The translations under genes and the position numbers were made by a program. DNA of 64,000 nucleotides. Origin: Cupriavidus gilardii (GTDB taxonomy: Bacteria; Pseudomonadota; Gammaproteobacteria; Burkholderiales; Burkholderiaceae). The notes below the pieces were generated by a model that was not told the DNA's origin, made no database searches, and worked only from the letters and a program-made list of their open reading frames with translations. Below are positions 12,683-60,480 of the stretch, piece after piece; within the stretch, counting starts at the first letter, position 1; each line of letters starts with the position of its first letter. Where the stretch lies: the NCBI RefSeq assembly GCF_008801915.1, contig NZ_VZOV01000001.1, positions 434,001-498,000 on the forward strand, written 5' to 3'.

Positions 12683-13639
12683 ATGAACTTGCCCGCGAAG
12701 GTGTGGCGGACGGCTGTTGCCTGCATGCTGGCGGCCGCCATGTCGGTCACCGCCGTGCCCGCCACGGCGGACTCAAGGACGGACCGCGACCGCCTCATAC
12801 TGCTTGGCACCAAGGGTGGCCCGAGCGTGCGTGACGTCGACCAGGTGCCGACGTCGAACGCCGTGGTGCTCGGCAAGGACACGTATCTGGTCGACGCAGG
12901 ATATGGCGCGGCGCTCCGGCTCGTCGAAGCCAGGATTCCGCTGACTTCGGTGCGTGCCATCCTGCTGACGCATCACCATTCCGATCACAACCTCGACGTT
13001 GGGCCTCTGATCTACAGCGCGTGGACCGGAGGGCTCGCCAAGCCCGTCGGCGTCTACGGGCCGCGCGGCGTGGAGAACCTCGTCGCCGGATATCTGCAGT
13101 CCAATGCCTTCGACATGACGACGCGCATGCAGGACGAAGGACGTCCCGACCTGCGCCGGCTGATCGACGTCAAGACGTACAGCGAAGGGCCGGTGATGGA
13201 GAACGAGCGGATCAAGGTGACCGCGCTGAAGGTCGCGCATCCGCCGATCGACGACAGCTATGCGCTGAAGATCGAAGTGAAGGGCGGCAAGACGATCGTC
13301 TTCTCCGGCGATACGACCTACTTTCCGCCACTGGCGGCGTTTGCCAGAAATGCCGATTACCTGGTGCACGAGGTGATGTACGTGCCGGCATTGGAGCGCC
13401 TGACGCAGCGGTCGCCAAATGCCAAGACGCTGATGAAACATCTGCTGGCCTCGCATACCACAACCGAGGATGTCGGCAGGATCGCCGCGGCGGCCGGCGT
13501 CAAGAACGTGGTGCTGACGCATTTCGTCCCCGGAGCGGATCCCGCCATGCACGACGAGCAGTGGCTGGAGGGCGTGCGGAAACACTATGGCGGTAACGTA
13601 GTGCTCGGCCGCGATCGCCTGGAAATCCCCTTGGACTGA
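12683..13639 (+). CDS. Exported metallo-beta-lactamase-fold hydrolase
   Basis: A 318-residue MBL-fold protein with a Sec signal peptide (hydrophobic stretch at about 11-27, cleavage likely after VPATA). The metal motif LTHHHSDHNLDVG is at about 94-106, with further ligands in KVAHPPIDD, VFSGDT and a C-terminal LTHFVPG. This layout matches the RNase Z/arylsulfatase-like branch of periplasmic MBL hydrolases. A very strong ribosome-binding site (AAGGAGGAG) precedes ATG 12683. It is the last gene of the module, 40 bases after the gamma-CA gene. The physiological substrate is unknown; ester or lactone hydrolysis before uptake is possible. Confidence 0.88.
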   Translation: MNLPAKVWRTAVACMLAAAMSVTAVPATADSRTDRDRLILLGTKGGPSVRDVDQVPTSNAVVLGKDTYLVDAGYGAALRLVEARIPLTSVRAILLTHHHSDHNLDVGPLIYSAWTGGLAKPVGVYGPRGVENLVAGYLQSNAFDMTTRMQDEGRPDLRRLIDVKTYSEGPVMENERIKVTALKVAHPPIDDSYALKIEVKGGKTIVFSGDTTYFPPLAAFARNADYLVHEVMYVPALERLTQRSPNAKTLMKHLLASHTTTEDVGRIAAAAGVKNVVLTHFVPGADPAMHDEQWLEGVRKHYGGNVVLGRDRLEIPLD

Positions 13640-49170: not shown

Positions 49171-50385
49171 TCACGCCGTCTCGAACAGCTTCTCGTGCGT
49201 GCGCGGCCGGGCCGCATGGTCGGGCAGGGCCCGGTACCCCGCCGCGAACACCAGCCGGCCGGCCGACCACGTATGCGTGACCATCGGTTGCCCGGCCACA
49301 GGCGCGACCGCGATCACGTCCGCGCGCAATCCCGGTGCCAGTCGGCCGCGATCGTGCAACAGGCAGGCGTCCGCCGGATTGGCGGTGACCAGCGCGGCCG
49401 CCTCGTTCAGCGGCAAGTCGGCCAGGCGCGCCGCGGCAAACGCGGCGGCGATCAGCGTCGAGGGCTGGTAGTCCGAACAGAGGATATGGCCGACCCCCGC
49501 CTGGATCGCGTCGATCGCGCGCATCGATCCGCTCTGGCTGCGGCCGCGCAGCACGTTCGGCGCGCCGAAGATCGTCGGTAGCGCGTGGGCGGCGGCCGCC
49601 TGCGCGGTGTCGAGGTTGATCGGAAACTCGCTCATGCGCACGCCGAGGGCCTGCATCGCGGCAATGCGCTGCGGGGAATCGTCGTCATGGCTGGCGGTCG
49701 GCACGCCGACTTCGTGCGCGCGGGACAGCAGCCGGCGGACCCGCTCGTGCGCACCGTCGCGCTGCTCGGCCTTCTTCGCGGCGGCGTCCGCCGCTTCCTC
49801 GCGGCTCATGCCATGGTTGCCGACCATGTAGGCAAGGTACGCGTCGAGCGTCTTGAACTGGCCCTGTCCCGGCGAATGGTCCATCACCGACAGCAGGTCG
49901 ACCACGCCCTCGAGCATCAGCATCTCGAGCACCGGCACCGCGGCAGCGTCGGTCACTTCGTAGCGGCAATGGATTCGGTTGTCGACCAGGCTGTGGTCGC
50001 GGTACGCCGCCACGGTGCGCACCAGTTCGGCCGCCGTGTCGTTGTTGCGTACGCCGAACTGGTTATTGGCGAAGGACAGCGCATGGTAGGGCGTGGTGAT
50101 GCCGGCCGCCGCGTTGCGCCGATCGACCTGTGCCACGGCGAAATCCATCGGGAACAGCACGTTGGCACGCGGTTCGACCTCTTTCTCGATCGCGTCGCAA
50201 TGGACGTCGATCAGGCCGGGCATCACCGTGTGTCCGCGCAGCGCCACGACGCTGGCCAGCGCGGGCAGCGTGGATGGGTCGGGCTCGATGGCGGCGATGC
50301 GTCCATCCTCGATCAGCAGCGCGCTGTCTTGCAGCACGCGGTCGGGCAGTACCAGGGTGACGTGCGTCAGGTAAGTGGCGGACAT
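49171..50385 (-). CDS. phnM: Alpha-D-ribose 1-methylphosphonate 5-triphosphate diphosphatase
   Basis: A 404-residue amidohydrolase-fold protein, slightly longer than E. coli PhnM (378). Metal-site motifs include GLIDVHCDAIEKEVEPR (about 57-73), SVMDHSPGQGQ, ASHDDDSPQR and CSDYQPSTL. PhnM removes pyrophosphate from the ribose triphosphate phosphonate made by the PhnGHIL complex, giving the PhnJ substrate. It is the last gene of the phnG-M run, 77 bases after phnL, and convergent with module C. Confidence 0.95.
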   Translation of the reverse strand: MSATYLTHVTLVLPDRVLQDSALLIEDGRIAAIEPDPSTLPALASVVALRGHTVMPGLIDVHCDAIEKEVEPRANVLFPMDFAVAQVDRRNAAAGITTPYHALSFANNQFGVRNNDTAAELVRTVAAYRDHSLVDNRIHCRYEVTDAAAVPVLEMLMLEGVVDLLSVMDHSPGQGQFKTLDAYLAYMVGNHGMSREEAADAAAKKAEQRDGAHERVRRLLSRAHEVGVPTASHDDDSPQRIAAMQALGVRMSEFPINLDTAQAAAAHALPTIFGAPNVLRGRSQSGSMRAIDAIQAGVGHILCSDYQPSTLIAAAFAAARLADLPLNEAAALVTANPADACLLHDRGRLAPGLRADVIAVAPVAGQPMVTHTWSAGRLVFAAGYRALPDHAARPRTHEKLFETA

Positions 50386-50462: not shown

Positions 50463-51200
50463 TCACGCGGCCGCGGTCGCCGGCTGCAACGGCAGCAGGC
50501 GCGTGGCGACCGCATCGCGGACCGCCTCGTCGTGAAAGATGCCGATCAGGCAGCGGCCCTCGGCCAGCGCCTCGCGGATCAGTTCGACCACCACGGTACG
50601 GTTATCGGCGTCGAGCGAGGCGGTGGGCTCGTCCAGCAGCAGGATCGGGTGGCCGCCGATCAGCCCGCGCGCGATATTGACGCGCTGCTGCTCGCCGCCC
50701 GAGAACGTTGCCGGCGGCAGCTCCCACAGCCGGCGCGGCAGGTTCAGCCGTTGCAGCAGCGCCGCGGCGCGCGCGCGGGCCTCGTTGCGGTCGATGCCGC
50801 GCTGCTGCAGCGGCTCCGCCACGACGTCGAGCGCGCCCACGCGCGGAATCGCGCGCAGGAACTGGCTGACATAGCCGATCACGTCGCGGCGCAGCTTCAG
50901 CACGCGTTGCTCGGGTGCATCGGTCAAAAGGACCCAGGGCTCGCCTTCGGCACTGGTATCGCGAAGCCGGATGCTGCCTTCGGTGGCCAGATAGTTGCCG
51001 TACAGGCATCGCAGCAACGTGCTCTTGCCGGTGCCGGACCTGCCCGACAGCACCAGGCATTCGCCGCGCGCCGCGTCGAAATCGATCGCCTGCAGCACCG
51101 GCAGCCGGATGCCGCCCTGGTTGTGCAAGGTAAACATCTTGCCGAGGCCGCGGACCTCGATCAGCGTCCGTGCGTGCTCGGCCTGCCGTGCTTGATTCAT
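50463..51200 (-). CDS. phnL: C-P lyase accessory ABC-type ATPase PhnL
   Basis: A 245-residue ABC ATPase. Walker A is LSGRSGTGKST (about 52-62), the signature FSGGEQQRVNIARGL is near 156-170, and Walker B is ILLLDEPTASLD. PhnL is part of the C-P lyase machinery, acting with PhnG, H and I to form the ribose-triphosphate phosphonate rather than driving transport. It follows phnK by three bases. Confidence 0.95.
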   Translation of the reverse strand: MNQARQAEHARTLIEVRGLGKMFTLHNQGGIRLPVLQAIDFDAARGECLVLSGRSGTGKSTLLRCLYGNYLATEGSIRLRDTSAEGEPWVLLTDAPEQRVLKLRRDVIGYVSQFLRAIPRVGALDVVAEPLQQRGIDRNEARARAAALLQRLNLPRRLWELPPATFSGGEQQRVNIARGLIGGHPILLLDEPTASLDADNRTVVVELIREALAEGRCLIGIFHDEAVRDAVATRLLPLQPATAAA

Positions 51201-51203
51201 GGT

Positions 51204-51980
51204 TCAACCCTGCAGAATGGAAGAGACCAGCAGCTGCGTATAGGGATGCTGCGGGTCGTCGAGAATCTGATCGGTCAGGCCTTGCTCGACCACGCGCCCG
51301 CCCTGCATCACCAGCGTGCGGTGTGCGAGCAGCCGGGCGACGGCGAGGTCGTGCGTGACGAGGATGGCGGCCAGGTCGAGGTCCGACACCAGCCGGCGCA
51401 GCAGGTCGAGCAGGCGCGCCTGAACCGAGACGTCGAGCGACGCGGTGGGCTCGTCCATGAAGACCAGGCGTGGATGCGTGACCAGGTTGCGGGCGATCTG
51501 CAGCCGCTGCTGCATGCCGCCGGAGAAGGCGTGCGGGGTGTCGTCCAGCCGCGCGAGGTCGATCTCCATTTTCTCCAGCCAGGCGCCGGCGATCTCGCGC
51601 AGCTCGCCGTAGTGGCGCTGTCCGACTGCCATCAGGCGCTCGGCGATATTGGCGCCGGCGCTGACCTGCATGCGCAGGCCGTCGCGCGCGTGCTGATGCA
51701 CGAAGCCCCAGTCGGTGCGGGCGAGCAGACGCAGGCGCGCGCTCGACAGGGTCGCCAGATCGGTCAGCCCGGACTCCCGCATGTCGTAGCTGACGCTGCC
51801 GCGCTGGGCCGGCGCCTGCATCGACAGCGCCTGCAGCAAGGTGCTCTTGCCCGAGCCGGATTCGCCGACGATGCACAGCACTTCGCCGGGATACAAGTCG
51901 AAGCTGACGTCATGGCAGCCATGGACGCCGTCCCACGTGCGCGTCAGCCCGCGCACCGACAGCAAGGGCGTCGCGCTCAT
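51204..51980 (-). CDS. phnK: C-P lyase accessory ABC-type ATPase PhnK
   Basis: A 258-residue ABC ATPase. Walker A is VGESGSGKST (about 38-47), the signature FSGGMQQRLQIARNL is near 150-165, and Walker B is LVFMDEPTASLD. PhnK docks onto the C-P lyase core through PhnJ. Its ATG overlaps the phnJ stop as ATGA, as expected for a subunit made in fixed proportion. The C-terminal part resembles dipeptide-transporter ATPases, which is normal for PhnK. Confidence 0.95.
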   Translation of the reverse strand: MSATPLLSVRGLTRTWDGVHGCHDVSFDLYPGEVLCIVGESGSGKSTLLQALSMQAPAQRGSVSYDMRESGLTDLATLSSARLRLLARTDWGFVHQHARDGLRMQVSAGANIAERLMAVGQRHYGELREIAGAWLEKMEIDLARLDDTPHAFSGGMQQRLQIARNLVTHPRLVFMDEPTASLDVSVQARLLDLLRRLVSDLDLAAILVTHDLAVARLLAHRTLVMQGGRVVEQGLTDQILDDPQHPYTQLLVSSILQG

Positions 51981-52891
51981 CGCACACCTCCGGCGGCCGA
52001 ATCCGTGGGCTCGGCGGCCTGTCGGGCCTGCCGATCGGCGCAGTACTCGGTGTCCGAGCAGACGAACATGCGCGTACCGGCATCGTCGGTGATGATCTCG
52101 TCCAGATAGCTGTCGGTGGCGCCGCACTGGGCGCAACAGCTGGACCACTTCTCGACCGTGAACGGATGATCGGCGAAGTCGAGGCTCTTGACCGAGGTGT
52201 ACGGCGGCACCGCGTAGACGCGCTTCTCGCGGCCCGCGCCGAACAGCATCAGCGCCGGATTGCGGTCCAGCTTCGGGTTGTCGAACTTCGGGATCGGCGA
52301 AGGCCGCATCATGTAGCGCTGGTTGACGATGACCGGGTAGTCGTAGGTCGTGGCGATATGGCCGTGGCGCGCGATGTCTTCGTACAGCTTGACGTGCATG
52401 GCGCCGTATTCCGCCAGCGCATGCATCGTGCGTGTCTCCGTTTCGCTGGGCTCGAGCCAGCGCAGCGGCTCGGGGATCGGCACCTGGAACACGATGGTCT
52501 GGCCTTCGCGCAGCGGTGTTTCAGGGATGCGATGGCGGGTCTGGATGATGCTTGCCTCGGCGGTGCGTTCCGTGGTGCGTACGCCGGTCACCCTGCCGAA
52601 GAAGCGGCGGATGTTGATGGCGTTGGTGGTGTCGTCCGAACCCTGGTCGATGACCTTGAGTACGTCGCGCCGGCCGATGATGGCCGCGGTGACCTGGATG
52701 CCGCCGGTGCCCCAGCCATAGGGCAGCGGCATCTCGCGGCTGCCGAACGGGACCTGGTAGCCGGGAATCGCCACCGCCTTCAGCAGGGCCCGGCGCAGCA
52801 TGCGCTTGGTCGATTCGTCGAGATAGCCGAAGTTGTAGTGGGCGTCCGGCGTGGGGCTTTCCACGACGACAGGGGCAATGGCGGCGGTCAT
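51977..52891 (-). CDS. phnJ: Carbon-phosphorus lyase PhnJ (radical SAM)
   Basis: A 304-residue catalytic subunit. Its four cysteines follow the exact PhnJ spacing C-x2-C-x21-C-x5-C: CAQC near 247-250, then the cysteines in FVCSDTEYC. Three bind the 4Fe-4S cluster and one carries the thiyl radical in the E. coli enzyme. It cleaves the C-P bond of ribose methylphosphonate 5-phosphate, releasing the alkane and the cyclic ribose phosphate. It overlaps phnI and phnK by four bases each. Confidence 0.97.
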   Translation of the reverse strand: MTAAIAPVVVESPTPDAHYNFGYLDESTKRMLRRALLKAVAIPGYQVPFGSREMPLPYGWGTGGIQVTAAIIGRRDVLKVIDQGSDDTTNAINIRRFFGRVTGVRTTERTAEASIIQTRHRIPETPLREGQTIVFQVPIPEPLRWLEPSETETRTMHALAEYGAMHVKLYEDIARHGHIATTYDYPVIVNQRYMMRPSPIPKFDNPKLDRNPALMLFGAGREKRVYAVPPYTSVKSLDFADHPFTVEKWSSCCAQCGATDSYLDEIITDDAGTRMFVCSDTEYCADRQARQAAEPTDSAAGGVR

Positions 52892-54069
52892 GCGACGCTC
52901 TCCTCGTGGGGCTGGCCTTGTTGCGCAGTTTCGCTGTGTTGGGGAGCGCGGGCAGACGCGGCGACCGCTGGGGCTTCGGAGCCCGGCGCCGCCGTCTGGC
53001 GCTGCGCGCGCAGCCGGCGCAGCAGTTCGAGATTGGTCTGGAAGTCCACGTAGTGCGGCAGCTTCAGATGCTGGACGAAGCCCGAGGCCTCGACGTTGTC
53101 GCTGTGATACAGCATGAATTCGATGTCGTTGGCCGGATTGTCGGCGGCCTCGCCGAGTTCCTCGGCGCGCATCGCCCGATCGACCAGCGCCATCGACATC
53201 GCCTTGCGCTCGTTGTAGCCGAACACCAGGCCATAGCCGCGGGTGAAGCAGGGCGCTTCCTCGGCATTGCCGGCGAAGTCGTTGATCATCTGGCACTCGG
53301 TCAGCTCGATCTCGCCGATCGTCACGGCAAAGCCCAGCTCTTCGACGAACAGTTCAACCTCTGCGAGGCCGTAGCGGATCTCCGCGGCGAACGGGTGCGA
53401 ATTGCCGTATCCGCGTTGCGTCGAATAGCCCATCGACAGCAGGAAGCCTTCGTCGGCCCGGGCCAGATTCTGCAGCCTCGCCGCACGGGCGGCCGGGAAG
53501 GTCAACGGCTCGCGGGTCAGGTCGGTCGGCGCGGGATCGCCAGGCGGAATGGGCTCGGCCTCGACCAGCGCTTCGGCTTGCAGCAGATCGGTCACGCGCG
53601 GCATCGCCTCGGCCTCGCCGCCCGTTTCCTTGTACGTCGCCGCGACCGCATGGGCAACGCCCTCTGCCTCGAGCGAGAAGTCGAGCAGCCGCTGCGTATA
53701 GTCGTACGTCGGCCCCAGCACCTGCCCGCCCGGCACATCCTTGAAGGTCGACGAAATCCGCCGGCGCAGCCGCATGGCCCCGGTATCGAGCGGTACCGTA
53801 TAGCCGAAGCGCGCCAGCGTGGTGCGATAGGCCCGCAGCAGGAATACCGCCTCGATCTGATCGCCGGCGGCCTGCTTCAATGCCAGCGCGGCGAGATGCG
53901 GGTCGTACAGCGAACCCTCGGCCATCACGCGGGAAACGGCGAGCGGCATCTGTTCGCGGATCTGGGCCAGCGTCAGTTCCGGCACCGAAGGATCGCCGCG
54001 TCGATACGCGTCCACCATGCGGTACGAATTGAGGATGGCGCGTTCTCCGCCCTTGACTGCGACGTACAT
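52888..54069 (-). CDS. phnI: C-P lyase core subunit PhnI
   Basis: A 393-residue core subunit. Family stretches include YVAVKGGERAI at the start, GYSTQRGYGNSHPFAAEIR near 221-239, and NDIEFMLYHSDNVEASGFVQ (by pattern) near 322-341. PhnI with G, H and L replaces adenine of ATP by the phosphonate. The last 40 residues are Ala/Gln/Ser-rich and are probably a flexible tail specific to this lineage. It starts one base after the phnH stop and overlaps phnJ by four. Confidence 0.96.
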   Translation of the reverse strand: MYVAVKGGERAILNSYRMVDAYRRGDPSVPELTLAQIREQMPLAVSRVMAEGSLYDPHLAALALKQAAGDQIEAVFLLRAYRTTLARFGYTVPLDTGAMRLRRRISSTFKDVPGGQVLGPTYDYTQRLLDFSLEAEGVAHAVAATYKETGGEAEAMPRVTDLLQAEALVEAEPIPPGDPAPTDLTREPLTFPAARAARLQNLARADEGFLLSMGYSTQRGYGNSHPFAAEIRYGLAEVELFVEELGFAVTIGEIELTECQMINDFAGNAEEAPCFTRGYGLVFGYNERKAMSMALVDRAMRAEELGEAADNPANDIEFMLYHSDNVEASGFVQHLKLPHYVDFQTNLELLRRLRAQRQTAAPGSEAPAVAASARAPQHSETAQQGQPHEESVA

Positions 54070-54070
54070 G

Positions 54071-54688
54071 TCAGTCCTCCACCAGTGTGGTGCGCGGCAG
54101 CGCGCAAATCCGATCGCCGGCGGTCAGCAACAGGTCCACGCCCAGCGGAAAGCCGGCATGGTTGGCTTGCCATTGCCGGCGGAAGTCGTCCGGCAGGCCG
54201 CCGACGCGCAGCGTGCGGGTGGTCTCGATGCCCGGACCGCGCAGCGTCAGCGTGCCACCTTCGTCGAGCGAAGCCACCTCGACGATCAGCGTGGCCGAGC
54301 GGTCCGGAAAGGCGGGATCGCCCTGCGCGCAGCGGCGCAGCGCCGGCATGTCATGACCGGCCGGCACGCAGACGAATTGCGCGGACGCCAGCTCTTCAAC
54401 CAGCGGGCACCCGCAGTGAAACCGCAGGAAGCCGCCGATCGATGCGGCGACGTCGGCCGGCAGCCAGACCGGCGTGTCCGGATCGGCCAGCGTCAGCAGC
54501 AGCGCCGTCATCGCCGGCGACAGGCCGTCGGGCACGCCGCAATCGGCGTTCAGCGTCTCGATGCGGCCCGGATGCGAGATCGCTTGCAACGTCGCGCGAA
54601 AGACCTGTTGAGCGTCGTCGACAGGATTGTCGAAACCGGGCAGCAGCGACGCGGTGGTCTGGCCGGACATCGTATGCAGGGTCGGCAT
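54071..54688 (-). CDS. phnH: C-P lyase core subunit PhnH
   Basis: A 205-residue core subunit (E. coli 194). It begins LLPGFDNPVDDAQQVFRATL (about 15-34) and continues with AISHPGRIE and ALLLTLADPDTPVWL, all typical PhnH. It sits one base after phnG and one base before phnI in the operon. It is structurally required in the GHIJ complex. Confidence 0.95.
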   Translation of the reverse strand: MPTLHTMSGQTTASLLPGFDNPVDDAQQVFRATLQAISHPGRIETLNADCGVPDGLSPAMTALLLTLADPDTPVWLPADVAASIGGFLRFHCGCPLVEELASAQFVCVPAGHDMPALRRCAQGDPAFPDRSATLIVEVASLDEGGTLTLRGPGIETTRTLRVGGLPDDFRRQWQANHAGFPLGVDLLLTAGDRICALPRTTLVED

Positions 54689-54689
54689 C

Positions 54690-55211
54690 TCAGTCCTCTC
54701 CGCGGGCCATCGTGAAGAACTCGACGCGGGTCTGCGCGGCAGTGGCGGCTTCCGTCGCGGCGCGCTCTGCCAGCGCGCTGGCCAGAGGCTCGACCACGAT
54801 CTGCTGTACACGGGCATGCCATTCTGGCCGCTGCAGCAGTGCGTCGAGCACGGCCGCCTGTTCGACATGGCGCGGGCAGCGGCCCATTGCATAGGCCACG
54901 CCGGCGACCGCTGGCTCTTCGGTGGACGCCGGGCTGGCCTCGAGTACCACCGCGCAACGCGTCACGGTGATTTCGCCGAGGTTGAACTGCGCGCCAGTGC
55001 CCCCGGTACGCCCGCGCACCATCGCCATGCCGGATTCCGGCTTGCGCAGCAGCCGGTATGCCGGCAAGGGGCCGTGCTGTGCCAACTGCCGGTAGGCGCC
55101 GTCCAGCGCGTCGGTGTCCGCCAGCGCCAGAATCCGCAGCCATGCGGCCCGGGAAGCGTCGGCGGTATCGCTGATCTGGCCGCTTTCGCCGATCTTGCCT
55201 GTCATCGTCAT
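54690..55211 (-). CDS. phnG: C-P lyase core subunit PhnG
   Basis: A 173-residue core subunit and first gene of the phnGHIJKLM operon. Family motifs are RAAWLRILALADTDAL (about 21-36), PAYRLLRKPESGMAMVRGR (about 50-68), FNLGEITVTRCAV, and a C-terminal RVEFFTMARGE. ATG 55211 and a second ATG two codons on (55205) are both possible; AGGG lies before the first. A Pho-box-like repeat (55275-55292) and a PhnF-like site (55220-55227) lie upstream. Confidence 0.95.
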   Translation of the reverse strand: MTMTGKIGESGQISDTADASRAAWLRILALADTDALDGAYRQLAQHGPLPAYRLLRKPESGMAMVRGRTGGTGAQFNLGEITVTRCAVVLEASPASTEEPAVAGVAYAMGRCPRHVEQAAVLDALLQRPEWHARVQQIVVEPLASALAERAATEAATAAQTRVEFFTMARGED

Positions 55212-55292: not shown

Positions 55293-55400
55293 GCCCGGAT
55301 CGTGATCGGACACCGCGCACGCAGGCATGCGGCTCGGGCACAATCGCACGATGCGATGGCCGCCGAATGACAGCGGTCCATGACCAGGAGAACAACAACG

Positions 55401-56135
55401 ATGTCGGAACGAGAAGTCGAACGGGGCTCGGGCGTCGCGGTGTGGCGCCAGATCGGGGAGGCGCTGGCCGATGACATCCGCAAGAAGCTGTACGGGCCGG
55501 GCGAGCAGCTGCCGCCCGAGTCGGAGCTGGCCATGCGGTTTGCGGTCAATCGCCATACGGTGAGACGTGCCATGAGCGAGCTCGAGCAGAGCGGGCTGGT
55601 ACGGATCGAGCAGGGGCGCGGCACCTTCGTGCAGGAGCATGCGATCGACTATGCGATCGCGCGGCGTACCCGCTTCTCGCAAAACCTCGCCGCGCAAGGC
55701 ATGCGCGGCCATACCGAAGTGGTCGGCAGCCAGGTAAGCCGTCTGCCCGAGGTCGCCCGGCATCTTGGCCTGGCGCGCACGGCGCCGGTGCTGCATGTGC
55801 AGATGGTGGGCAAGGCCGAGGGCCGTCCGATCGATGTGGCGGAGCACTATTTCGATTACGAGCGCTTCCCGCAGCTGGCGGACCTGCTGCGCGACCAGCG
55901 CTCGATTTCGCGGGCGCTCGCGCAATGCGGCATCGCCGACTACACTCGCAAGTGGTCGCGCATCACGGCGGCGCTGCCCAGCGCACCGGTGGCGCGGCTG
56001 CTGAACCAGCCGAAGACCAGGCCCGTACTGCAGGTCGAGGCGTTGAACGTCGACATCGACGGCGCGCCGGTGCAGTACAGCGTCACGCGGTTTGCTGGCG
56101 ACTGGGTTCAGCTGACCGTATCGGATAACGACTGA
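55401..56135 (+). CDS. phnF: GntR/HutC-family phosphonate regulator PhnF
   Basis: A 244-residue regulator. The winged helix reads VWRQIGEALADDIRKKLYGP, then MRFAVNRHTVRRAMSELEQS (about 11-63), followed by a UTRA ligand domain (RTRFSQNLAAQGMRGHTEV and on). HutC-type PhnF proteins repress phosphonate genes. ATG 55401 is preferred over an ATG at 55380 because AGGAG lies at 55387. It is divergent from phnG and precedes the DUF1045-phnN pair on the same strand by about 96 bases, so it sits between its probable targets. Confidence 0.93.
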   Translation: MSEREVERGSGVAVWRQIGEALADDIRKKLYGPGEQLPPESELAMRFAVNRHTVRRAMSELEQSGLVRIEQGRGTFVQEHAIDYAIARRTRFSQNLAAQGMRGHTEVVGSQVSRLPEVARHLGLARTAPVLHVQMVGKAEGRPIDVAEHYFDYERFPQLADLLRDQRSISRALAQCGIADYTRKWSRITAALPSAPVARLLNQPKTRPVLQVEALNVDIDGAPVQYSVTRFAGDWVQLTVSDND

Positions 56136-56171
56136 ACCGCGGCGCGAGCGGATGGCATGGCTGTTCCATTG

Positions 56172-56179
56172 GTCTAGAC
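56172..56179. promoter_or_regulatory. Candidate PhnF palindrome upstream of DUF1045/phnN
   Basis: GTCTAGAC is a perfect octamer palindrome in the gap after phnF, matching GTCTATAC upstream of phnG with one change. It overlaps the Pho-box-like repeat at 56175-56192, so PhoB activation and PhnF repression would compete here. Confidence 0.5.
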
Positions 56180-56192
56180 ATCCGTCTGTCAC
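56175..56192 (+). promoter_or_regulatory. Pho box upstream of DUF1045/phnN
   Basis: TAGACAT-CCGT-CTGTCAC keeps the 7-4-7 PhoB pattern. The second half-site is essentially consensus and the first is weak (4 of 7). It lies 39 bases upstream of ATG 56232 in the correct orientation. Weaker than the phnC and phnG boxes. Confidence 0.5.
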
Positions 56193-56231
56193 CTTGCCGC
56201 GTTAGCCTGCCGATTGGACACACGCACGCAC

Positions 56232-56963
56232 ATGACCATGCCGGCGCATCGATACGCCATTTACCTTGCTCCCAACGAGCCGTTCCGTACCTTCGGCCAA
56301 CACTGGCTCGGCCGCGACGCGGACACAGGGGCAGCGGTACCCCTGCTTCCCGAGATGGCGGCGCGGCCGGCCGAGTGGGTCGAGGCGCCGGCCCATTACG
56401 GCCTGCACGCGACGCTGAAGCCGCCGTTCCGGTTGGCCGAAGGCATGGTCCCGGCAATGCTGGATGATGCGGTGCGCAATTTCGCCCGCGGTCGGCATCC
56501 GTTCCAGGTTCCGTTGACGCTGCGCGCGCTGCGGGGCTTTGTTGCGTGGAGCCTGGCGGATCGGCACGAGGCGGCAGAGCGGGTGCACCTGCTTGCCGAC
56601 GCGAGCGTGCGCGAGCTGGACCGCTTCCGCGCGCCGCCAACGCCGGACGAAATCGCGCGGCGCAACCCCGAACGGCTGTCCGAGCTGGAGCAGCAGATGC
56701 TGCGCGACTGGGGCTATCCCTATCTGTTCGAGACCTTTACCTTCCATATCACGCTGACCGGCATGCTGGACGCGGAGCGGCAGGCCGCGGCGCTGGCCCA
56801 GCTGTCGATGGCGGCCGGCGCGCTGCTGGACACGCCGCTTCGCGTGGACAGCGTCAGCGTGTTCGTCCAGCCCGAGCCCGGGGCCGCTTTCGTGGCGGCA
56901 CGGCACTACGGTTTCGATGGCGGAACCAGAGATGGCGCCGGCGGGGCGTACCTGTCGGCATGA
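56232..56963 (+). CDS. DUF1045 2H-phosphoesterase-like phosphonate protein
   Basis: A 243-residue DUF1045 protein. Two H-x-T motifs define the 2H phosphoesterase superfamily: HATLKPPF (His near 60) and HITLTG (His near 175), spaced as in cyclic phosphodiesterases. ATG 56232 or 56238 starts it. Its stop overlaps the phnN start as ATGA. This family is found mainly beside phn genes. No phnP, which opens phosphoribosyl 1,2-cyclic phosphate just before the PhnN step, is present in this window. The simplest reading is that DUF1045 performs the PhnP reaction here (inference). Confidence 0.88.
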   Translation: MTMPAHRYAIYLAPNEPFRTFGQHWLGRDADTGAAVPLLPEMAARPAEWVEAPAHYGLHATLKPPFRLAEGMVPAMLDDAVRNFARGRHPFQVPLTLRALRGFVAWSLADRHEAAERVHLLADASVRELDRFRAPPTPDEIARRNPERLSELEQQMLRDWGYPYLFETFTFHITLTGMLDAERQAAALAQLSMAAGALLDTPLRVDSVSVFVQPEPGAAFVAARHYGFDGGTRDGAGGAYLSA

Positions 56964-57562
56964 GCGCGGCAAATCACGGCGTGGATGGCGCCGGTCTGTT
57001 CTACCTGATGGGGCCATCGGGCAGCGGCAAGGACTCGCTGCTGCGGGCGCTGCGCGCGAGAGCGGGCAGCGACGACCGCCTGATCGTCGCGCATCGCTAT
57101 ATCACGCGACAGGCGGATGCCAACGAGGCGTCGGTGGCGCTGACCACCGAGGAATTCCATCGCCGCGTGGCGCGGGGCTGCATGGCGATGCACTGGCACA
57201 GCCACGGCCTGCACTATGGCATCGGTATCGAGATCGAGCAGTGGCTGGCACGGGGTATGAAGGTCGTCGTCAATGGCTCGCGCGAGTACCTGCCGCAAGC
57301 GGTGGCGCGCTATCCAAAGCTGAGTGCGCTCCATGTGCGGGTGTCGCCGGAAGTGCTGGCCGCACGCTTGCGCCAGCGTGGCCGGGAGTCGGAAGAGGCA
57401 ATCGCACGGCGCCTGGCACGTGCCACCGCGCCGTTCGATGTGCCCGCCGATTGCCGGATTGTCGAGATCGACAACAGCGGGGCGCTGCACTCGGCTGCCG
57501 AGGCGATGGCAAAGGCAATCGGCATCGCGCCGGCCATCAGGCCGGCGGACGAAGGGCGCTGA
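56960..57562 (+). CDS. phnN: Ribose 1,5-bisphosphate phosphokinase PhnN
   Basis: A 200-residue P-loop kinase of the guanylate-kinase fold. Walker A is LMGPSGSGKDSLL (about 16-28), then VAHRYITRQADANEASVAL and GIGIEIEQWLARGMKVVVNG (by pattern). PhnN phosphorylates ribose 1,5-bisphosphate to PRPP, the last step of the C-P lyase route. It is translationally coupled to the DUF1045 gene by ATGA, and ends 46 bases from the convergent phnE stop. Confidence 0.95.
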   Translation: MSAANHGVDGAGLFYLMGPSGSGKDSLLRALRARAGSDDRLIVAHRYITRQADANEASVALTTEEFHRRVARGCMAMHWHSHGLHYGIGIEIEQWLARGMKVVVNGSREYLPQAVARYPKLSALHVRVSPEVLAARLRQRGRESEEAIARRLARATAPFDVPADCRIVEIDNSGALHSAAEAMAKAIGIAPAIRPADEGR

Positions 57563-57608: not shown

Positions 57609-58418
57609 TCAGACCAGCACCTTGCGGATCTGCGCCGAAAGCACGTCGATCACGGTCACGAAGGCGATGATCAGCAGCATCACGGCACAGGTCTGCGCGT
57701 ACTGGAAGCTGCGGATGATCTCCCACAGCACGGTGCCGATGCCGCCCGCGCCGACGATGCCGACCACCGACGCCGAACGGACATTCGACTCGAAGCGATA
57801 GAGCGCAAACGACAGCCACAGCGGCAGCACCTGCGGAATCACGCCGTAGACGATTTCTTCCAGCCGGCCCGCGCCGGTGGCGCGCACGCCCTCGACCGGA
57901 CGCGGATCGATGGCCTCGACCGCCTCGGCGAACAGCTTGGCGAGCACGCCGGTGGTGTGAATCCAGATCGCCAGCACGCCGGCGAATGGTCCCAGCCCGA
58001 CGGCGACGATGAACAGCATCGCGAACACCATCTCGTTGATGGCGCGCGAGGCGTCCATCAGGCGCCTCGCCGGCTGGTAGATCCACGCCGGCACGATATT
58101 GGCCGAACACAGCAGGCCCAGCGGCACTGCCACGGCGACCGCCAGCGCGGTGCCCCAGACGGCGATCTGCACCGTCACCAGCATCTCGTCGAGATAGTGC
58201 CGCCAGTCGCGGAAGTCGGGCGGGAAGAAGTCGGCGGCGAACTGCGCCATATTGCCGGAGTCGCGCAGCAGGTCAAGCGGGCGCATGTCGGCGCCCTGCC
58301 AGGACAGGGTCAGCATCGCGAGCACGATGGCCCAGACGAGCATGGCGGACAGGGAGGCGCGCGGCGGCCGGCCGTTCGCGTTCGGCGAAGGCAGGCCGGG
58401 CTTGGCGGTGGCGGTCAT
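57609..58418 (-). CDS. phnE: Phosphonate ABC transporter permease PhnE
   Basis: A 269-residue inner-membrane permease with about six spans. The EAA-type ATPase contact loop is [20 protein letters not shown] (about 183-202), followed by [23 protein letters not shown] 58418 starts the recognisable protein; the longer open frame upstream is poor coding. It lies 112 bases after phnD and completes the phnCDE importer. Confidence 0.94.
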
Positions 58419-58530
58419 CAGGGAATCCGTAGAAAGAAAGTAGGCGGCAGGGACGCGGCACGGCCCCGGCCCTGCGGTCAGTCGAAACGATGCGCAACGA
58501 CTGCGCAATCACAGCGCAATTACAGCGCGA

Positions 58531-59511
58531 TCACTGCGCGCTGACGGCCTTGTCGAGTTCGGCAAGCCGGCGCGACACGTCCGCCAGCCGCTTTTCCTTG
58601 TCGGCGGCGCCAAGCGTGCCGTCCGATTCGATGCGGGCCTTCTCCTTGGCCAGCTCGATCTGCCGGATCGGCACCAGTTGCGCATCGCTGGACGGGCGGA
58701 AGCCCTGGTAGGTCAGCGTGGCCAGCACCTGCTTCTCGCGCGCGGCATCGGCGCCCTTGCCGTAGTTGACGAAGAAGGTCTGGATCTTCTTCTTCAGGTC
58801 GGCCGGCAGGTCCTTGCGGTACACCATCGGATCGGCCGGGATCAGCGGCGATTTCCACAGCACGCGCACCTGTTCGTACGGGTCCTTGCCGGTGTTGACC
58901 CGATAGCGCCCGAGGTTCTCGGTATTGTTGACCGCGACGTCGACCTGCTTGTTCAGCACGGACAACAGGTTGGCTTCATGGTTGCCGATGCGCACCGCCT
59001 TGAACAGCGTCTTCGGGTCGACCTTGTTGGCCGCCCACAGATAGTGGCCGGGGACCAGCGTGCCCGAGGTCGAGTTCGGATCGCCGGCGCCGTAGGACAG
59101 CTCCTTGCCGCGCTTGATCACGTCGTCGACCGACTTCAGGTCGCTGTCCTTGCTGACGATCAGCAGCGACCAGTAGCCCGGGTTGCCGTCCTTGTCGATC
59201 ACCGAGGCGAATACCTCGCCGTTGGCGCGATCGACCGCCTCCATCGCCGACTTGTTGCCGAACCAGGCGATCTGCACCTTGTTGAAGCGCATGCCTTCGA
59301 TGATGCCGGCATAGTCGGACGCGAAGAACGGCTTGACCGGCACGCCGAGCGTCTTGCTCAGGTCATCGATCAGCGGTTGCCAGGCGGTCTTCAGGTTCGA
59401 CGACGACTCGGTCGAGATGAAGCCGATGCTCAGCGGCTTGGCATCCTGCGCCAGGGCCGGGGTGGCGACGATGGCCGATGCGATCAGCGCGAAGAAGGTT
59501 CTGCGAAGCAT
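58531..59511 (-). CDS. phnD: Phosphonate-binding protein PhnD
   Basis: A 326-residue periplasmic binding protein. The signal peptide MLRRTFFALIASAIVATPAL is cleaved near ALA-QDAK. Mature features include LSIGFISTESSSNLKTAWQP (about 26-45), PFFASDYAGIIEGMRFNKVQ and SYGAGDPNSTSGTLVPGHYL, typical of PhnD (Phosphonate-bd). It captures phosphonates for PhnCE. It follows phnC by 73 bases. Confidence 0.94.
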   Translation of the reverse strand: MLRRTFFALIASAIVATPALAQDAKPLSIGFISTESSSNLKTAWQPLIDDLSKTLGVPVKPFFASDYAGIIEGMRFNKVQIAWFGNKSAMEAVDRANGEVFASVIDKDGNPGYWSLLIVSKDSDLKSVDDVIKRGKELSYGAGDPNSTSGTLVPGHYLWAANKVDPKTLFKAVRIGNHEANLLSVLNKQVDVAVNNTENLGRYRVNTGKDPYEQVRVLWKSPLIPADPMVYRKDLPADLKKKIQTFFVNYGKGADAAREKQVLATLTYQGFRPSSDAQLVPIRQIELAKEKARIESDGTLGAADKEKRLADVSRRLAELDKAVSAQ

Positions 59512-59584: not shown

Positions 59585-60436
59585 TCACGCGGCCGCGAGA
59601 TCCATCCTGACGGTGGCCGGTACCAGCATGCCGTCGGCCGGCATCGCGATCCGGTCGGGCACCAGGTCATGCAGCAGCTCGTCGGCCTCGGTGCCATAGA
59701 GATCGCGCAGCATGCTCTGCGTCAGCGCCTGGGACGGGCCGTCGTAGACGACCTTGCCGTGGCGCAGCGCCACCACGCGCGGGCAGTAGCGCATCGCGAT
59801 GTCGACCTGATGCAGCGACACCACCACGGCGACCTTGTGCGTGCGATTGATCTGTGTCAGCAGCGCCATCACGCGGCGCGACGATTCGGGATCGAGCGAG
59901 GCGATCGGCTCGTCGGCCAGGATCACGCGGGCGTTCTGCACCAGCGTCCGCGCAATCGCGGCGCGCTGCTGCTGGCCGCCCGACAACGTCGAAGCACGTT
60001 GAAACGCATAGTCGTCTATACCAACTTGCGCAAGCGCATCGAGCCCGGCGCGCAGTTCATCGGCCTTGAAATAGCGAAGCAGGCCACGCCATTTCGGGAT
60101 GCGGCTCAACATGCCGATCATCACGTTGGTGATCACCGGCAGGCGACCGACCAGATTGAACTGCTGGAACACGAAGCCGATTTCGGCGCGGGCCTTGCGA
60201 ACGTCCGCGGCGAGCCGGCCATCGCGCTGCACGGTGCGGCCATGTACCAGGATCTCGCCGCTGTCGGCGGCGACGAAACCGGCCACATGACGCAGCAGCG
60301 TGGACTTGCCGGAGCCCGAGGCCCCCAGCAGCGCCACCATTTCGCCGGGCGCCACCTGCAGCGTCACGTCGTCGAGGGCCTTTCGGTCGGCCCGGAACGA
60401 CTTGCTGACGCCGCGCACTTCGATTGCATGGGTCAT
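59585..60436 (-). CDS. phnC: Phosphonate ABC transporter ATPase PhnC
   Basis: A 283-residue ATPase and first gene of phnCDE. Walker A is [11 protein letters not shown] (about 37-47), the Q-loop is in [10 protein letters not shown], the signature [15 protein letters not shown] is near 150-164, and Walker B is [20 protein letters not shown] precedes ATG 60436. A strong Pho box lies 45 bases upstream. The C-terminal tail is about 20 residues longer than in most PhnC. Confidence 0.95.
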
Positions 60437-60480
60437 GTCGACTCCCTTGCTGAATGACGGGGGCATTCTGGGGGGAGGTG

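Follow-up and report, generated by a model that had tools for sequence, protein, structure and literature searches.

The DUF1045 protein encoded next to phnN in the phn locus of Cupriavidus gilardii is most likely, with a probability that we put at about 0.85, a phosphoribosyl cyclic phosphodiesterase that takes the place of PhnP. We base this prediction on the gene itself, its motifs and predicted fold, the absence of PhnP, the mutual exclusion of the two proteins, and the linkage of DUF1045 to phn genes. A sequence-only reading of this DNA had suggested that DUF1045 may replace PhnP. The suggestion is strengthened by the absence of PhnP over the cut-off genome-wide, by the lack of any genome with both proteins among 109, and by the 2H-type fold, whereas the local nature of the coupling to phnN and the small number of evolutionary switches are its weaker points. 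The window protein is a typical representative of a known family, and its function is well founded, but predicted.

PhnP uses a metal centre and has a metallo-beta-lactamase fold, which differs from that of DUF1045. DUF1045 would perform the same reaction as E. coli PhnP through unrelated chemistry, with the two histidines of the 2H fold serving as the acid and the base and with no metal centre. PhnJ produces 5-phospho-alpha-D-ribosyl 1,2-cyclic phosphate; DUF1045 would open the cyclic phosphate of this compound and release ribose 1,5-bisphosphate, which PhnN would then convert to PRPP; a 2H enzyme with the same regiochemistry as PhnP would feed PhnN directly. If true, this would be a clean example of one metabolic step served by two unrelated folds. 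PhnP, similar to DUF1045, adjoins PhnN in the mapped PhnP loci. One paper describes the conversion of the PhnJ product to ribose 1,5-bisphosphate by PhnP, its phosphorylation to PRPP by PhnN, and the spilling of ribose 1,2-cyclic phosphate by an E. coli phnP mutant (PMC3463581).

The substitution idea is sound; it is not new and is already in print. The replacement of phnP by DUF1045/rcsF was proposed for marine clusters (PMC3840354) and repeated in PMC5649143, and a replacement naming DUF1045 was proposed for Aminobacter (PMC8235418). A review of 54 operons gives PhnP in 27 and rcsF in 16 without phnP (PMC10574752, after the 2009 PhnP structure paper), and credits C-P lyase with the release of methane from methylphosphonate in phosphate-poor waters. 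For a marine bacterium, a proteome table on P stress includes a DUF1045 protein along with PhnI, J, L, and M (PMC10132767), and the term DUF1045 is absent from the main text of PMC11203657. A partial survey of the literature, with subscription papers outside its scope, found no published enzyme assay of DUF1045/RcsF, and such an assay may exist. The present study contributes a larger count of the exclusion, a clade that serves as a control, and predictions about residues.

The window, namely, the whole stretch of 64,000 nucleotides analyzed, had been described as holding the core phn genes and no phnP. This was borne out: phnC to phnN were found, and phnP was not (Table 1). The genes are ordered phnM-L-K-J-I-H-G on the minus strand, phnF, DUF1045, and phnN on the plus strand, and phnE-D-C on the minus strand. 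DUF1045 starts with ATG at 56232 and stops with TGA at 56961-56963; TTG at 56214 is a possible alternative in-frame start upstream. The interval between phnF and DUF1045 (56136-56231, 96 bases) is without a second phnM-like frame, as is that of the same-genus locus L042. Such a frame is present between these genes in some relatives (L068:10279-11556, NF011987 533 bits; L103, L104, and L105).

Table 1. Genes of the phn locus in the window, with profile scores.
Feature	Position	Strand	Support
phnM	49171..50385	-	NF011989 666.7 bits, cut-off 565
phnL	50463..51200	-	TIGR02324 314.2 bits
phnK	51204..52037	-	TIGR02323 378.2 bits
phnJ reading frame, start untrimmed	51977..53296	-	PF06007 495.5-496.1 bits; PhnJ domain 52025-52840
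phnI	52888..54069	-	PF05861 531.7 bits
phnH	54071..54682	-	TIGR03292 201.2 bits
phnG	54690..55211	-	TIGR03293 161.6 bits
phnF regulator	55380..56135	+	TIGR02325 257.1 bits
DUF1045 / 2H-fold protein (RcsF in phn papers), candidate phosphoribosyl 1,2-cyclic phosphate phosphodiesterase	56232..56963	+	243 aa
phnN, ribose 1,5-bisphosphokinase	56960..57562	+	TIGR02322 214.1 bits, cut-off 156
phnE permease	57609..58508	-	TIGR01097 303.8 bits, cut-off 216.7
phnD phosphonate-binding protein	58531..59511	-	TIGR03431 362.3 bits, cut-off 261.1
phnC ATPase	59585..60439	-	TIGR02315 293.6 bits, cut-off 266.1

DUF1045 and PhnP were never found together in genomes with PhnJ. An even draw across the phylum comprised 398 genomes, 83 of which had PhnJ; DUF1045 was present in 62 and PhnP over the cut-off in 19, while none had both and two had neither. 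If the predicted activity is true, the E. coli version is the less common one in this draw. Another draw, confined to the order of the window, comprised 300 genomes; PhnJ was present in 30, including 26 new ones (DUF1045 in 18, PhnP in five, both in none, and neither in three). The co-occurrence check proposed in the sequence-only reading thus returned, in recounted profile searches of the combined 109 PhnJ genomes, DUF1045 in 80, PhnP in 24, both in none, and neither in five; DUF1045 was present in 80/85 PhnJ genomes without PhnP. Accepted PhnP matches (296-433 bits) were well separated from the next best (111 bits), and weak matches in G210 (33 bits) and G288 (29 bits) were left out of the DUF1045 count. 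The main searches for both proteins covered 80 of the 83 PhnJ genomes of the phylum draw, with G313, G361, and G390 covered separately, and the count excludes plasmid searches with DUF1045 and PhnP. Computed naively, the hypergeometric probability of no overlap is 1.4e-19; this figure takes no account of relatedness, and we do not use it as evidence. PhnJ and DUF1045 occurred without PhnN over the cut-off in 3/83 genomes (G016, G032, and G246); in G246, a sub-cut-off PhnN match (135 bits) adjoins DUF1045. The reverse, PhnN over the cut-off with PhnJ and a DUF1045 match absent, was noted in G023, G058, G062, G130, G146, G237, G286, G298, and G310. The PhnN search and the search for DUF1045 in PhnJ-less genomes scored the first seven or eight candidates per genome.

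The pattern of exclusion is strong, yet few switches underlie it. In a PhnJ tree of 101 of the 109 genomes (eight were left out), the PhnP operons formed three groups: six that were deep and divergent (support 100), 12 together with two rows that had neither protein (support 96), and six (G344, G190, G261, G583, G308, and G385; support 95) that fell within the DUF1045 operons at moderate support (83-88). The minimum number of changes between DUF1045 and PhnP on this tree was three. Independent pairs numbered one on supported branches and three on all branches, and a sign test was uninformative. Since there are only one to three independent pairs and as few as three changes, the exclusion may be an inherited operon type. 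The switch between DUF1045 and PhnP tracks operon lineages, with few independent events. G583 carries PhnP, whereas its fellow members of family f90, G481 and G518, carry DUF1045; therefore, the choice follows the operon, not the host.

DUF1045 was also detected in 7/315 PhnJ-less genomes (G322, G083, G095, G103, G175, G183, and G208), and PhnP over the cut-off was found in none of these seven. PhnN over the cut-off was present in G322 alone, which belongs to the same family as the window and carries phnM-DUF1045-phnN together at L023:7759-10501 with no PhnJ. G095 retained DUF1045-phnM, and our own profiles found no phn neighbour of DUF1045 in the remaining five. A DUF1045 tree was built from 74 of 77 copies (L008, L021, and L022, which are fragments or have odd starts, were omitted); loci were retrieved for 10 of the 18 DUF1045 genomes of the order draw, none of which is in this tree. 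The G322 copy was sister to a phn-linked copy (100) and four other PhnJ-less copies nested among the phn-linked ones of family f55, while G103 had a long branch and an unsure placement. Of the 16 marked residues, the seven copies retain between 14 and all 16, with both H-x-T motifs intact, and the simple reading is that C-P lyase was lost around a retained DUF1045.

Four paralogues in family f51 (L011, L013, L014, and L030) are located near urate/ureide-pathway genes, namely, OHCU decarboxylase (L011 and L013), HIU hydrolase (L013, L014, and L030), and a deacetylase-type gene (L013, L014, and L030), and their genomes also have a phn-linked copy. These paralogues form one clade (99), in which R144 and Y162 are changed in all four and both motif threonines in three. 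The PhnJ-less genomes and this side clade count against an exclusive C-P lyase role. PRPP decays chemically to the same cyclic phosphate, and DUF1045 may serve more generally to repair ribose 1,2-cyclic phosphate, beyond its part in the C-P lyase route, with the urate paralogue then re-tasked. We consider this unlikely; it would explain why PhnJ-less genomes hold copies with intact motifs and why G322 has a phnM-DUF1045-phnN module.

The PhnJ-less copies, six of the seven without PhnN over the cut-off, may also suit a 2H phosphodiesterase of the phn pathway that has another substrate or role, leaving the PhnP step to a general hydrolase, and the five PhnJ genomes with neither protein point in the same direction. 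However, we regard this as quite improbable in view of the zero overlap among 109 genomes and the state of several of these five. The phn contig of G584 stops just short of the site at which its sister G555 carries DUF1045, and its lack of both proteins is probably an assembly gap at the contig edge. The contig of G520 starts inside phnI, and the same is possibly true there. The phnN match of G374 is without its N-terminal part. The other two are G377 and G619. A tblastn search of the 20-kb loci of G374 and G377 with two PhnP queries gave no convincing PhnP remnant (best E 0.13). A search for a third enzyme in these two genomes likewise found no candidate gene directly adjoining phnN. The phnN-phnC gap of G377 (L004:6431-6904) holds short repeats where the same-genus G178 (L086) has phnP.

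The claim that phnP is missing now extends from the window to the whole genome: the search suggested in the sequence-only reading, performed with the TIGR03307 profile on 5.79 Mb in 115 contigs (completeness given as 100), found no PhnP over the curated cut-off. The sole match at E <= 0.001 (window 12839-13114) scored 27.7 bits (cut-off 272.25) and lies in a protein (12683-13639) with a metallo-beta-lactamase fold (Lactamase_B_2 59.4 bits in Pfam). Although it is the only such match in the genome, this protein is very unlikely to be the true PhnP: its score is approximately one tenth of the cut-off, the match spans profile positions 34-116 only, the gene is more than 40 kb away from DUF1045 and phnN, and its N-terminus resembles an export signal on inspection. 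Moreover, TIGR03307 also matches in 10 control genomes besides E. coli, and just one control genome is over the cut-off.

The window protein is assigned to PF06299 (DUF1045) by Pfam with 171.9 bits against a gathering threshold of 24.3. It scores 243.4 bits against TIGR03223, 5.5 short of the curated cut-off of 248.95, and is therefore not classed as an equivalog under this model. Among 59 PhnJ genomes with a match, 37 pass this cut-off, and 22 are below it, as is the window protein. We see no essential difference between this protein and the PF06299/TIGR03223 "putative phosphonate metabolism protein" or RcsF, with which it shares the Pfam family and the phn neighbourhood. Pfam also gave matches above the cut-off to LigT_PEase (30.8 bits vs 23.3) and to 2'-5' RNA ligase, both weaker than PF06299, and no match to metallo-beta-lactamase.

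The 2H fold is that of a predicted, not a solved, structure. The AlphaFold2 model, made from 60 aligned sequences, had a pLDDT of 96.6 and a pTM of 0.92, and its top PDB matches were 2d4g (E 5.9e-6) and 1jh6, the Appr>p phosphodiesterase of Arabidopsis (E 1.9e-5). Eleven matches reached E <= 0.001, with TM-scores by query of 0.38-0.51 and identities of 8-15%, and we take all of them, by title or family, to be 2H proteins; Usb1 was further down the list. The Arabidopsis cyclic phosphodiesterase (1jh6, 1jh7, and 1fsi) shares 8-11% identity with DUF1045 over the fold match, and its substrate, Appr>p, has ADP at C5, whereas the proposed substrate of DUF1045 would have a phosphate there. E. coli LigT, of the LigT/ThpR RNA 2',3'-cyclic phosphodiesterases, was among the weaker fold matches. 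The host genome encodes LigT separately (119.7 bits), and DUF1045 aligns weakly to this protein (hhalign, second motif only, probability 1.1%). Arg6 of LigT binds the 5-phosphate in crystals (PMC5283653). R7 of DUF1045 was considered as a 5-phosphate binder by analogy and rejected: the match of two N-terminal strands was made by eye, and hhalign left that part unaligned.

Two H-x-T motifs of the 2H superfamily, pointed out from the letters alone, were confirmed as H59-A-T61 and H172-I-T174. R7, G27, H59, P65, R133, G161, H172, and L175 are invariant in all 52 rows of an alignment of 52 of the 77 DUF1045 copies. In the 50 rows outside the urate clade, Y162 is retained in 50, the motif threonines in 50 (one as T174S), R144 in 48, and K63 in 46. 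R144 is lost in the phn-linked L007 and the PhnJ-less L026. As judged from these sequences, Y162 marks phn association most cleanly, and R144 has exceptions.

Loci were mapped with our own profiles, seeded with the window proteins and one PhnP, and the labels were confirmed by Pfam/NCBIfam for the window genes and a few others only. A phn core gene, phnM, or phnN is located within 7 kb of DUF1045 in 71/87 copies in the sampled-genome loci (window included) and in 79/80 loci of a second set, which is biased because it consists of the closest matches to the query; a second alignment combined the window protein with 59 of these 80. phnM or phnN is within 500 bp in 69/87 and 77/80, respectively, a proximity that may also suit a non-catalytic structural or coupling partner of PhnN or PhnM, but such a role is barely credible with both catalytic histidines invariant and the motif threonines retained, one as serine, in all non-urate rows.

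The ATG of phnN at 56960 overlaps the stop codon of DUF1045 by 4 nt (ATGA). The overlap that had been described as a fusion is real; however, it is a stop/start overlap of two separate proteins. The coupling had also been offered as support for the substitution, and the confirmed ATGA is one layout among several. It ends DUF1045 in 9 of the 18 plus-strand DUF1045->phnN pairs up to 60 bases apart (excluding the window and minus-strand pairs); among same-genus relatives, L042 has ATGA and L068 has GTGA. In family f55, DUF1045 and phnN are convergent in 14/14 mapped loci where they adjoin (L055, L057, L058, L059, L061, L065, L070, L072, L073, L074, L078, L079, L082, and L083), with tail-to-tail overlaps of 19 bases in 11 loci and 25 bases in three. 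In family f51, the usual order is DUF1045-phnM-phnN, and some genomes have phnJ on a different contig. Because the layouts vary in this manner, the coupling is a local feature within a conserved DUF1045 neighbourhood. Divergent second C-P lyase clusters were also observed (L008, L009, L093, and L094 in G194, G071, G339, and G067; PhnJ 379-397 bits); L009 ends with phnM-DUF1045-phnN, and the DUF1045 of L008 is in pieces.
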